This document shows, one piece after another, positions 26,147 through 30,202 of a DNA stretch of 42,856 nt. The notes below the pieces were generated by a model. That model worked only from the letters and a program-made list of their open reading frames with translations, ran no database searches and was not told the DNA's origin. The position numbers and the translations under genes were made by a program. Source of the stretch: a virus. The stretch is from positions 1 to 42,856 of IMG/VR virus record IMGVR_UViG_3300027281_000008, one strand, 5' to 3'. Each line of letters opens with the position of its first letter. The stretch's first letter is position 1.

Positions 26147-26287
26147 ATGGATGCATTCCTGCAAGTTGGATTTCTAGTTGTAATCTTATTTCTATGCGTA
26201 ACTTATGTCTTGTCAATTCTAATCGCCTGTATTAGTAGACCTAAAAATGAGATTAAAGCCAAAAGACATCTCTGGATTCAGAGATAA
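26147..26287 (+). CDS. Possible small membrane protein (46 aa)
   Basis: An ORF starting ATGGATGCA with one long hydrophobic segment (VGFLVVILFLCVTYVLSILI) and a basic tail (RPKNEIKAKRHLWIQR). It overlaps the endonuclease VII gene by 41 bases in another frame and starts 18 bases from the divergent HTH gene. The membrane-helix-plus-basic-tail design is plausible for a small phage protein, but coding is not proven. Confidence 0.35.
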   Translation: MDAFLQVGFLVVILFLCVTYVLSILIACISRPKNEIKAKRHLWIQR

Positions 26288-26621
26288 GGTCATTCTTGAA
26301 CAGGGTGGCGTATGCTGGCTATGTGAAATTGACTTAAAAACTGTTACCCCGTGCCTTGACCACAACCACGAAACGGGTAAGATTAGGGGTGTACTGTGTC
26401 AGAACTGCAATGGCATTGAGGGTAAGATTAAGAACCTAGCAAGACGAGCCAAACGGGAAAAAACCAGTTACGAGTTTGTTGTAAAAATTCTAGCGTACTG
26501 GAATTACTTCTCTGCCCATCAGCGTCCTGAATTCCACCCAACACATAAGACAGAAGATGAGAAGCGATTGAGACGAAATAAAAAGGCGAGAGATAAGAGA
26601 AAAAAGAAGATTGGGGGTTGA
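26247..26621 (+). CDS. Endonuclease VII-like HNH resolvase
   Basis: 124 residues. Zinc and catalytic pattern of the recombination endonuclease VII family: C23-x-x-C26, D38-H-N-H41, RGVLC51-x-x-C54-N55. The enzyme cuts branched DNA such as Holliday junctions and replication forks, clearing DNA for packaging. The C-terminal 45 residues are very basic. TTGTCA (26210-15) lies 37 bases upstream of the ATG, matching the short-leader promoter pattern of nearby genes. Confidence 0.85.
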   Translation: MRLKPKDISGFRDKVILEQGGVCWLCEIDLKTVTPCLDHNHETGKIRGVLCQNCNGIEGKIKNLARRAKREKTSYEFVVKILAYWNYFSAHQRPEFHPTHKTEDEKRLRRNKKARDKRKKKIGG

Positions 26622-26657: not shown

Positions 26658-27485
26658 ATGAGCAACACCATCCAAATCCGAAAGGGCATTGACCCGTCCT
26701 TTGTCCCTAACATCGTTGATTCCGATTATCGGAAAGCAACTGGCTTGAGCAAGTCTATGCTCAGTCACTTCCTCAAGTCTCCCGCTCACTACCTCGCACA
26801 TTGCGACCAGATGAGCGAGCCTACTGCCGCTATGCAGTTCGGCACGGCTTATGATGCTGAGATTCTTCAGCAGAAGCCCAGCGACTTCTATGCCGTGATG
26901 CCAGATGTGGACGGCAGGACTAAGGAGGGTAAGGCGGTCAAGGAGCAGTTCAAGATTGATGCGGCTGGTAAGGCTGTTATCTCGCCCAAGGAAGCAGAGA
27001 TGATTCCGCTGATGAAGAAAGCCCTGTACGAGCACCCTGTTGCTAACCGTCTTCTCCGTACATTGACGCACAAGCAGGTCGCTTGCTTTGGCACATATCA
27101 GGACTCAAAAGACAAGCAAGTTCGCTTGAAGGGCTTGCTAGACGGCTACAACGAAGCCGAGGGTATTATCGTAGACCTCAAGACGGCAGAGGATGCTTCT
27201 CCTGAAGGCTTCCGTAAGGCAATCTGGAAGTATAAGTACGCCTATCAGGATATCCAATATCGCTGGCTCTTAACCAATGCTGGTAAGCCTGTCAATGACT
27301 TCATCTTCATCGTTCAGGAAAAAGAGCCTCCCTTTGCGGTTGGTTGCTACTCCATCAGCGTTGATGACCTAGCCTTGACCTACCAGTCTTGGGAGATGGC
27401 TATGATTCGATTCGGTCATTGCCAGAAGAGCGGACAGTACCCCGCTTACGCTGACGAGGTCGTGAACCTGAAACTAACCAAGTGA
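26658..27485 (+). CDS. RecE-like exonuclease (PD-(D/E)XK)
   Basis: 275 residues from the ATG at 26658; an in-frame ATG at 26637 would add seven residues but lies in the promoter spacer. The segment GLSKSMLSHFLKSPAHYL (29-46), FGTAYDAEIL (61-70) and the catalytic series D162 ... D173-L-K175 match the exonuclease VIII-like PD-(D/E)XK family used by phages for single-strand annealing recombination. The ERF annealing protein is 2 kb downstream, which is a natural partner. The stop overlaps the next start as GTGA. Confidence 0.82.
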   Translation: MSNTIQIRKGIDPSFVPNIVDSDYRKATGLSKSMLSHFLKSPAHYLAHCDQMSEPTAAMQFGTAYDAEILQQKPSDFYAVMPDVDGRTKEGKAVKEQFKIDAAGKAVISPKEAEMIPLMKKALYEHPVANRLLRTLTHKQVACFGTYQDSKDKQVRLKGLLDGYNEAEGIIVDLKTAEDASPEGFRKAIWKYKYAYQDIQYRWLLTNAGKPVNDFIFIVQEKEPPFAVGCYSISVDDLALTYQSWEMAMIRFGHCQKSGQYPAYADEVVNLKLTK

Positions 27486-28177
27486 GCGAGCCTAAGTTCA
27501 CGGGGATTTGGATTCCCGCCATCGTCCTGACCTATCCCATCAGCATCACCGCTAAGGTGTGCTTTGGGGTGGTCGATGGGCTGGACAACGAGGACGGATG
27601 CTTCGCATCCAATGCGTACCTCCAGAATCACCTTCAACTGGAAAAGCGTCAACTTCAGAACATCCTAAAGGAACTGGATGACGCTAAACTCATTGTCCGT
27701 CAAGAGGTTGCAGGACGCAGAATTATCAGGACTGTTAGTAAGGTTGCTTTAGTAAAAGCCCGAACTGACGCACAGGTCACCCGCTCAGAGGGGTGCAATC
27801 CATTGCACGGGGGGGTGCAAAATAATGCACGGGGGGGATGCAATAAATTGCACCCATATAGTAAAGATGATAATAAAGAGGATAAAGATACAAAGGATTC
27901 TGCTCCTTGGTCATCTCCTTTACCCTTTGAATCAGAAGAGTTCTCCAATGCTTGGATGTCTTGGATTGCTTACCGAAAGGAAATCAAGAAGCCCATCAAG
28001 GAGAGCACGATGAAGGCTCAATGGAAGGAGTTCGCACTATGGGGTGAGCAGAAGTCCATTATCTCAATTGAGATGTCTATTAAGAACGGCTGGCAGGGTC
28101 TCTTTGAACCTGCTAGGTCTCAAAGTGGAAAAGGTAACACAAAACCATTGACAGCAAGCGACCACGAAGCATTCTGA
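27482..28177 (+). CDS. Replication initiator / helix-turn-helix protein (lambda O-like)
   Basis: 231 residues from a GTG start. The N-terminal ~90 residues (GIWIPAIVLTYPISITAKVC, then HLQLEKRQLQNILKELDDAKL) form a winged-HTH like those of phage replication proteins. A low-complexity linker at 98-145 is coded by the iteron-containing DNA. The C-terminus has FSNAWMSWIAYRKEIKKPIK and SIKNGWQGLF, the motif shared by phage O/DnaT-like proteins. With a helicase loader downstream, this looks like a lambda O/P-type pair that recruits host helicase to the origin inside the gene. Confidence 0.78.
   Translation: MSEPKFTGIWIPAIVLTYPISITAKVCFGVVDGLDNEDGCFASNAYLQNHLQLEKRQLQNILKELDDAKLIVRQEVAGRRIIRTVSKVALVKARTDAQVTRSEGCNPLHGGVQNNARGGCNKLHPYSKDDNKEDKDTKDSAPWSSPLPFESEEFSNAWMSWIAYRKEIKKPIKESTMKAQWKEFALWGEQKSIISIEMSIKNGWQGLFEPARSQSGKGNTKPLTASDHEAF
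27793..27853 (+). other. Candidate replication origin: three palindromic iterons within the initiator gene
   Basis: Three 16-bp palindromic units (27793-27808 GTGCAATCCATTGCAC, 27815-27830 GTGCAAAATAATGCAC, 27838-27853 ATGCAATAAATTGCAC) spaced by G-tracts at 22 and 23 bases, about two helical turns. An A/T-rich stretch (27857-27895) follows. This is the layout of the lambda origin in the O gene: initiator iterons next to an easily melted region. Confidence 0.72.
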
Positions 28178-28182
28178 TTCTA

Positions 28183-28518
28183 ATGAGAAACCTAAATAAG
28201 CCACCTCGCTACAATGTAGCCAGCATCCAAGCCCAGCAGACGCTAGGCGGTGATGTGATGCAGTCGGACGGGGAAGGACAGTATGTCGAGTTCCGTGATT
28301 ACGCTTGGTTGCTCACGGAGAAGCAACGCCTTGATAATAATTGTGATTACCTTGACCAGAAACTAGACGAGGAAATTGAAAAGTCTGCTATGCTCTGCGG
28401 ACAGGTCGAGCGGCTGACCAAGGCGGGGGATGAGATGGCGTTAAACCTTACTCACATTGGATGGAACATCTGCGTTGAAGCGTGGAACGCCGCCAAGGAG
28501 GGCAAGCAGTCCAAATGA
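28183..28518 (+). CDS. Hypothetical protein between initiator and helicase loader
   Basis: 111 residues. Basic start (MRNLNKPPRYNVASIQ), then EFRDYAWLLTEKQRLDNN and a coiled-coil-like part (LDQKLDEEIEKSAMLCGQVERL is coil; it is split here as LDQKLDEEIEK and SAMLCGQVERL). Not recognised. It is coupled to the helicase loader through ATGA, so it may be part of the replication unit. Confidence 0.6.
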   Translation: MRNLNKPPRYNVASIQAQQTLGGDVMQSDGEGQYVEFRDYAWLLTEKQRLDNNCDYLDQKLDEEIEKSAMLCGQVERLTKAGDEMALNLTHIGWNICVEAWNAAKEGKQSK

Positions 28519-29192
28519 GCGACATCGCCTGTCATTGTGGTCGTAGGGGTGCGTTGTTTGCTAAGAACGACAGCACTCATAAACTGGTTCGCTGGCATCA
28601 TTGCCGTGAGCACCTAGATGCCGTCCGTGTAGCCGATGCTGGATTGGTTGATTCTATTATCCCTCCATCTATGCCAGAAATCTTTAGGGATACTGACATC
28701 GCTCGCCTTCACCCCAACATCCAGAAGGCTCTGGATTGGAAGCCCAGCGGTGATGTCTCTGGTCTCCTTCTGCACGGCACTACGGGCATTGGGAAGACCC
28801 GTGGTATCTGGGCTATCATCTGCCGTATGTGGGCTGAGGAAGCCCTAAAGGACAAGCAATTGAACTTCCAGTTCTTGACTATGCGTAAACTGGAGACCAC
28901 CATTGAAATGGGTTTTAAAGACCAGAAGCACGGCACGGCTCTAGACCAGTTAATCACGATGCCGTTCTTAATCTTAGATGACTTTGGTAAGGAGCGGCTT
29001 ACCCAGCGTATGGCTTCTGACCTGTTCGCTATCATTGACGAGCGTAGCACGGCTCGTAGGGCTACCATTGTTAGCACGAACTTCAACGGTTCTACTCTAT
29101 TAGAGCGTTTTGACGCTAGGGACAAGGAGACTGGCGTTGCCCTTATCCGAAGACTAAAGGACTACTACCAGATGGTAGGGGCAGGGTCATAA
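28515..29192 (+). CDS. DnaC-like helicase loader (AAA+ ATPase)
   Basis: 225 residues from the ATG at 28515 (overlapping the previous stop as ATGA; an upstream start would overlap 34 bases more). The N-terminus has Cys/His residues (C6, C8, C30, H33) that could bind zinc. Walker A GTTGIGKT (88-95), Walker B FLILDDFGKE (151-160) and a sensor STN (187-189) identify the DnaC/IstB-type ATPase. It should load the host replicative helicase on the origin opened by the initiator. Confidence 0.85.
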   Translation: MSDIACHCGRRGALFAKNDSTHKLVRWHHCREHLDAVRVADAGLVDSIIPPSMPEIFRDTDIARLHPNIQKALDWKPSGDVSGLLLHGTTGIGKTRGIWAIICRMWAEEALKDKQLNFQFLTMRKLETTIEMGFKDQKHGTALDQLITMPFLILDDFGKERLTQRMASDLFAIIDERSTARRATIVSTNFNGSTLLERFDARDKETGVALIRRLKDYYQMVGAGS

Positions 29193-29251
29193 TAGTATAA
29201 CTTTAGCCTTGCATTAGTAATACCCTTCTGTTCTTCTCCGCTCCTTCCACT

Positions 29252-29428: not shown

Positions 29429-29476
29429 CACATTGCTTCTATGAATCCTTTCAGCACTTTCTTCGATAATAATCCT

Positions 29477-30202
29477 ATGAGCCAAAACACTCCAGAAACC
29501 CAAGCCATCCTGTTCAAATCCCTAGTGGACTTCATTGAAGCCAGTAAGGATATCCACGCAGACTCCACCAATCCATTTCATCGCAATCGTTATGCCAGCC
29601 TATCCGCTCACCTGCTTGCACTTAAACCCCTTGCCGCAAAGCACGGACTTGCCATCATCCAAATGCCTATCGGTGATTCCGAAAGCGTTGGTGTGCGAAC
29701 CCTCGTCATCCACGCTTGTGGTGCGTACCTATCGGCTGACGCTCTTATCCCAGCAGAGAAGGGACTCAAGGGACAAGACGCAGGAGCACTCATTTCTTAT
29801 CTTCGCCGCTACGCTTTGGCTTCGGTGTCTGGCGTGGCTACTGAGGATGACGATGCAGAGACTGACCGAGTCTCAAAGGCTGGAAGTACTGTCTCGCTTG
29901 AGAACCCTCCAAAGGGAATGAAGTACATCCCTAACCCTAACGCTGGTAAGTCCGTTAAGGCTTCTGGTGCTATGGTTGCACCCTTCGGTGACCGCAAGGG
30001 TATTCCTCTTGCTGAACTCCCGAAGAAGGAAGATGACCGTAGCGTTAAGTGCGGTGACCTCTACTACTTCGCTAAGGTCTGGACTCCCAAGCCCTTTGGT
30101 GAATCAACCACCGTTTCCCCTAAAGACCTCGCTATTAAGGCTGAAGCAATCCGTCTCTTTGAAGGCGAAGCACCGCAAACCGCTGACGAAGTCCCTTTCT
30201 AA
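29477..30202 (+). CDS. ERF-family single-strand annealing protein
   Basis: 241 residues from the ATG at 29477, which has the CCTATG context and a GATAAT box (29465-70) seven bases upstream. An in-frame ATG at 29441 would add 12 residues. ADSTNPFHRNRYASLSAHLL, then GAYLSADALIP and GQDAGALISYLRRYALASV (with the conserved SYLRRYAL), are the ERF-superfamily signatures. It anneals complementary DNA strands and pairs with the RecE-like exonuclease. The C-terminal third is a flexible region ending in a DEVPF tail like that of SSB-binding proteins. Confidence 0.85.
   Translation: MSQNTPETQAILFKSLVDFIEASKDIHADSTNPFHRNRYASLSAHLLALKPLAAKHGLAIIQMPIGDSESVGVRTLVIHACGAYLSADALIPAEKGLKGQDAGALISYLRRYALASVSGVATEDDDAETDRVSKAGSTVSLENPPKGMKYIPNPNAGKSVKASGAMVAPFGDRKGIPLAELPKKEDDRSVKCGDLYYFAKVWTPKPFGESTTVSPKDLAIKAEAIRLFEGEAPQTADEVPF

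Follow-up and report, generated by a model that had tools for sequence, protein, structure and literature searches.

Does the 42,856-nucleotide stretch of DNA from an uncultured phage analysed here (the window) carry a replication origin inside the gene for its own replication initiator? Within that gene lie three short palindromes at regular spacing, separated by runs of guanines and followed by an A/T-rich stretch. Comparison with related phage sequences makes an in-gene iteron origin very likely, and we put at about 85% the probability of the fuller reading, in which the array and the A/T-rich block form a predicted replication origin built into the initiator gene and operating by the mechanism proposed below.

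An array of palindromes in linker-coding DNA

A profile search matched the initiator to PHROG 678 (replication initiation, O-like; E = 1.4 × 10−21, residues 29–219), placing it in that family, and a PDB sequence search with the same protein matched nothing relevant. Its AlphaFold model shows a winged helix at residues 13–97, a disordered segment at residues 99–142 and a helical domain at residues 152–202. The GTG start codon overlaps the stop codon of the upstream gene, and the start codon at 28515 likewise overlaps the stop of the gene preceding it; these overlaps at 27482 and 28515 suggest translational coupling of the exonuclease–initiator and ORF111–loader pairs. An ORF with a Walker-A motif follows the initiator in 26 of 27 relatives. 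A recombination module (an endonuclease VII-like ORF, an exonuclease and an annealing protein) surrounds the initiator, and the sole match of the window in a nucleotide search of cultured phages, at 2%, falls in an endonuclease gene. The features are as follows.

26247–26621: endonuclease VII-like ORF, with DNA similarity to Rhizobium phage RHph_X3_9
26637–27485: PD-(D/E)XK exonuclease
27482–28177, plus strand: O-like replication initiator, 231 amino acids, GTG start, PHROG 678 match
27644–27682, plus strand: recognition helix, residues 55–67, with putative specificity residues Q59 and N60 (DSSP of the model; base prediction)
27794–27807, unstranded: iteron 1, TGCAATCCATTGCA, a 14-bp palindrome
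27809–27815, plus strand: G7 spacer run 1
27816–27829, unstranded: iteron 2, TGCAAAATAATGCA, a 14-bp palindrome
27831–27837, plus strand: G7 spacer run 2
27839–27852, unstranded: iteron 3, TGCAATAAATTGCA, a 14-bp palindrome
27855–27897, plus strand: A/T-rich stretch, purine-rich on the coding strand, presumed DNA unwinding element (duplex stability; codon entropy)
27935–28090, plus strand: C-terminal helical domain, residues 152–203, presumed loader or helicase contact (hhalign to mEpX1 O)
28515–29192, plus strand: DnaC-like helicase loader (PHROG 50, E = 6 × 10−16; PHROG 3277, E = 1 × 10−14)
29441–30202: ERF annealing protein

The array lies about 310 bp into the gene, in DNA encoding the disordered linker. 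A sequence-only reading had described it as three 16-bp palindromic repeats at helical spacing, separated by G-tracts and followed by an A/T-rich stretch. The three palindromes recur at 22 and 23 bp, or about 2.1–2.2 helical turns, as claimed, but their size needs revision: when the repeats are drawn at 16 bp, units 1 and 2 have 7 of their 8 positions paired and unit 3 ends A…C, so that the unit is better taken as 14 bp. Both G-tracts are there as runs of seven; the whole window has only four G/C runs of at least 7 nt, these two included. The A/T-rich stretch is there too, starting at 27855: no other 40 bp within 27001–29200 has so low a duplex stability, and it ranks in the top 0.13% of the window. 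No iteron copies beyond chance were found elsewhere in the window.

When the same protein was synonymously recoded 20,000 times, a chain equalling the array (14 of 15 arm matches, 22/23-bp spacing) arose in 26 recodings (0.13%), and a looser palindrome chain with two G/C runs of at least 6 nt occurred 11 times. Judged as DNA only, weak three-palindrome chains so spaced occur often, with 7 in the window versus 2.5 per mononucleotide shuffle. Of the 7, only the chain in the initiator gene has three copies of one half-site. What we consider decisive for the reality of the array is its conservation in 35 relatives.

Selection on the DNA and covariation with the recognition helix

Scans of IMG/VR yielded about 45 relatives, 35 of which were aligned for comparison of the array. 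In all 35 the iteron spacing is 22/23 or 23/23, the second interval always being 23, and the A/T-rich block begins 2 nt past unit 3. Half-sites vary between phages (TGCAA, GGCAA, TGCGG, TGCAG, GGAAG and GGAAA) and are largely uniform inside one phage. Runs of G or C reach 4 nt or more in 69 of the 70 spacers and 5 nt or more in 64, the run base being G in 60 spacers and C in 10. The three units occupy different reading frames, and repetition in the protein therefore does not explain the repeats. Codon choice is most constrained at the array and the A/T-rich block (codon-entropy ratios of 0.36 and 0.31, respectively, compared with 0.69–0.78 elsewhere), which, together with the different frames, indicates that selection acts on the DNA.

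Some arrays depart from this pattern. Two contigs, L051 and L061 (4001–4647 in each), retain one iteron unit and have lost the reading frame; units 1 and 3 of L051 would have shared a long identical stretch, and the single-unit arrays are likely to be assembly collapses, although they may be real deletions. In L056 and L059 the second spacer, GGGGGGCCCCC, is a G-run passing into a C-run.

The half-sites covary with two residues of the initiator. Across 23 representatives, half-site base 1 follows residue 59 in full (100%; T where the residue is Q, G where it is R or K), and bases 4–5 follow residue 60 to the same degree (100%; AA for N, GG for T or A, AG for V or G, and AA for one L). The runner-up N-domain column accounts for 0.49 of the label entropy at base 1 and for 0.74 at bases 4–5. 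Both residues map to the recognition helix of the AlphaFold model. In protein–DNA complexes A:T is commonly contacted by Gln, G:C by Arg and A by Asn. When the tree was built from the C-domain, all independent pairs were concordant (7 of 7 for base 1, p = 0.016; 6 of 6 for bases 4–5, p = 0.03), whereas a tree of the N-domain supported only 1 and 2 independent pairs, in practice all concordant. Since domain and array are linked, part of the covariation is likely to reflect their co-inheritance, but co-inheritance does not explain full prediction by only one column per base group. We consider the covariation strong indirect evidence that the initiator binds the repeats. In the L013–L059 family, a larger number of independent half-site switches is supported by the C-domain tree than by the N-domain tree, which suggests that initiator halves have been swapped between these phages.

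Relation to lambda O and to known in-gene origins

The initiator had also been called lambda O-like, a description that holds for one of its halves. Its C-domain aligns with that of mEpX1 O (hhalign probability 97.5%, E = 8 × 10−12), and this homology, with the DnaC-like gene nearby, groups it with the O proteins of DnaC-using lambdoids. The N-domain is of another kind. Phage_rep_O (PF04492), which scores 123 bits in lambda O and mEpX1 O, gave no match in the window protein at E up to 1, and hhalign produced no alignment with lambda O, so membership of Phage_rep_O was rejected. With Pfam HTH_36 (PF13730) the window protein itself scores 21.6 bits against a cut-off of 25, and most relatives tested pass (30.7–38.3 bits); it is through these relatives that sequence comparison places the N-domain with HTH_36. 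Its best fold matches include the Rep or initiator N-domains 4pql, 4pt7 and 5kbj (Z = 8.8, 8.2 and 8.1), values near the generic winged-helix level, and a RepA_N Pfam search with the initiator found no match.

In lambda, palindromic iterons 20–24 bp apart lie in the middle of gene O and are followed by an A-rich unwinding block (PMC7466680), and the proposed parallel of architecture is borne out by iterons within the initiator gene adjoining an A/T-rich block in the window. The two differ in detail: lambda has four 18-bp iterons with short spacers lacking G-runs, a Phage_rep_O N-domain and lambda P as partner, whereas the window phage has three 14-bp iterons with G7 spacers, an HTH_36-like N-domain and a DnaC-like loader. 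A functional origin in the same location is described both for lambda O (PMC7466680) and, in the sections of the plasmid paper drawn on here, for pSK41 Rep (PMC5703833). Those sections have the winged-helix N-domain of pSK41 Rep binding boxes centrally in the rep gene, the origin encoding a dispensable linker with a separate C-domain, and the pPR9 Rep sharing the same Pfam HTH (PF13730), with a working mini-replicon. On that account pSK41 and pPR9 resemble the window initiator in winged-helix N-domain, central origin, linker and separate C-domain, and differ in being plasmids, in their box sequences and in the contact of the pSK41 C-domain with primase; G-run spacers are not reported there for the pSK41 and pPR9 boxes, unlike the window array.

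Other phages have in-gene iterons with HTH_36/O-like and DnaD-type initiators, examples being Lysinibacillus phage vB_LspM-01, Pseudomonas phage Skulduggery and Bordetella phage PHB09, in which iterons of about 21–23 bp lie in the linker-coding part, as in the window. G5 or C4–6 runs between the iterons of vB_LspM-01 and Skulduggery resemble the window spacers. Unlike in the window, the iterons with such initiators are mostly direct rather than palindromic, and several isolates lack long runs. The layout of an array within the gene is thus already known; the G-run spacers and the readable protein–DNA matching code are new, and full-text literature, among open-licence papers, yielded no description of G-tract or G-quadruplex spacers in phage iterons.

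A predicted origin and the role of its spacers

In the mechanism we propose, dimers of the N-terminal winged helix would bind the three palindromic iterons, with Q59 and N60 reading the half-site TGCAA, and the bound array would strain the adjoining A/T-rich block until it opens. Through its C-terminal domain the initiator would recruit the DnaC-like loader, which in turn would bring in the replicative helicase. We infer opening and loader recruitment by analogy with lambda (PMC7466680) and with what the cited sections say of pSK41 Rep (PMC5703833). The array sits in DNA for the disordered linker, where protein sequence is of little importance. Its G:C homopolymer spacers would hold the phasing at 22/23 bp and make the array a stiff duplex that is hard to melt, confining opening to the A/T-rich block. 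The original proposal of an iteron origin in the initiator gene is strengthened by the PHROG 678 match, the conserved geometry, the covariation, the stability minimum and the DnaC-like loader downstream; the GC-skew check suggested for it gave no origin signal, the cumulative curve showing a peak and not a dip near 28–30 kb. The origins of most phages are unknown, and this family offers 35 natural variants of one predicted origin from which candidate protein contacts can be read (residue 59 as Q, R or K with base 1 as T, G or G; residue 60 as N with A at bases 4–5), making iteron specificity directly testable.

The array could be an origin in which the G-runs merely reflect the codons used for a flexible Gly-Gly linker, without any role as DNA. 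The spacers do encode Gly-Gly in the disordered linker, but GGG makes up 60% of Gly codons inside the array versus 25% outside, relatives with C-run spacers have Pro there, units and spacers fall in different frames, and unrelated initiators also show phased arrays of G6 runs, on one strand or the other, all of which makes this explanation unlikely. Base-specific reading of the runs by both protomers is also unlikely because the sites are dyad-symmetric and the runs are not, and because the run strand flips between relatives.

Phased runs outside the family were sought blind, as sets of three G6 runs 12–22 nt apart, and at least 80 loci came up; removal of poly-G and G-rich arrays left 55 among the matches listed. 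At 18 of these 55 listed loci an ORF overlapping the array has a match among PHROGs for replication initiation, the primosome or replication, and a further locus, L084, has a match by phmmer. Among the matches listed, a replication ORF accompanies 14 of 28 arrays phased at 19–25 bp versus 4 of 27 with other spacings (one-sided Fisher p = 0.006; L084 would raise the 14 to 15), a comparison in which some bias remains, the ORFs having been picked by eye before all were screened by phmmer, with 14 of 15 known positives recovered. Of the first 15 replication-ORF loci among the matches listed, 9 have the G6 run on the coding strand and 6 have it on the template strand, which argues for a property of the duplex and against strand structure or a codon effect. 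Cultured isolates generally have iterons within the gene and in some cases long G/C runs, which are thus not universal, and a G-run array looked for at Orf5 of the Leptospira phage LE1 was not seen. A tentative proposal, about which we remain rather doubtful, is that G:C homopolymer spacers phased at about 22 bp recur across many unrelated initiator families as a duplex element that in-gene phage origins need in order to function, each spacer insulating one initiator dimer from the next by its stiffness and resistance to melting. The phased G:C-run signature did find initiator genes from DNA alone and so offers a simple origin locator for uncultured phages; if the proposal is true, spacers and the two-residue recognition code would allow origins to be matched to initiators directly from metagenomic sequence.

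Palindromic sites under a winged-helix protein are typical operators, and the protein might use them only to regulate the gene or operon that encodes it, while replication starts elsewhere. We judge this decidedly improbable, as the sites are 310 bp into the gene, immediately next to an A/T block that is conserved and of unusually low stability, a DnaC-like loader gene follows, and no second iteron site was found upstream of the initiator gene. Action of the array as a folded structure, be it hairpins or a G-quadruplex, in its RNA or in one strand of its DNA has very little probability: the predicted fold of the coding strand is much more stable than those of shuffled sequences (−29.5 kcal/mol, z = −5.45) and the window's G7 runs could supply G3 tracts, but the palindromes alone account for the fold score, a G-quadruplex motif with loops up to 7 nt occurs in none of the 35 family members and a three-tetrad motif is absent from 21 of them even with loops up to 20 nt, L048, L049 and L054 have C-runs on the coding strand and L039, L043 and L044 mixed ones, and the half-sites covary with recognition-helix residues. 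Given those 21 members, a G-quadruplex was rejected as a conserved family feature, and the suggestion that the G-tracts form secondary structure falls in that respect.

The A/T-rich block reaches beyond the family. Its motif, ATATAAYAAAGRWGATAAYAAAG, matches 29 contigs, and by this match the presumed unwinding block is more widely spread than the initiator protein. Among these contigs, L222, L229, L238 and L228 encode distantly related initiators with different iterons and have nearly the same A/T-rich block as the window at 27855–27897; in L229 a C6 spacer and ACCAAC/GTTGGT palindromes lie ahead of it.
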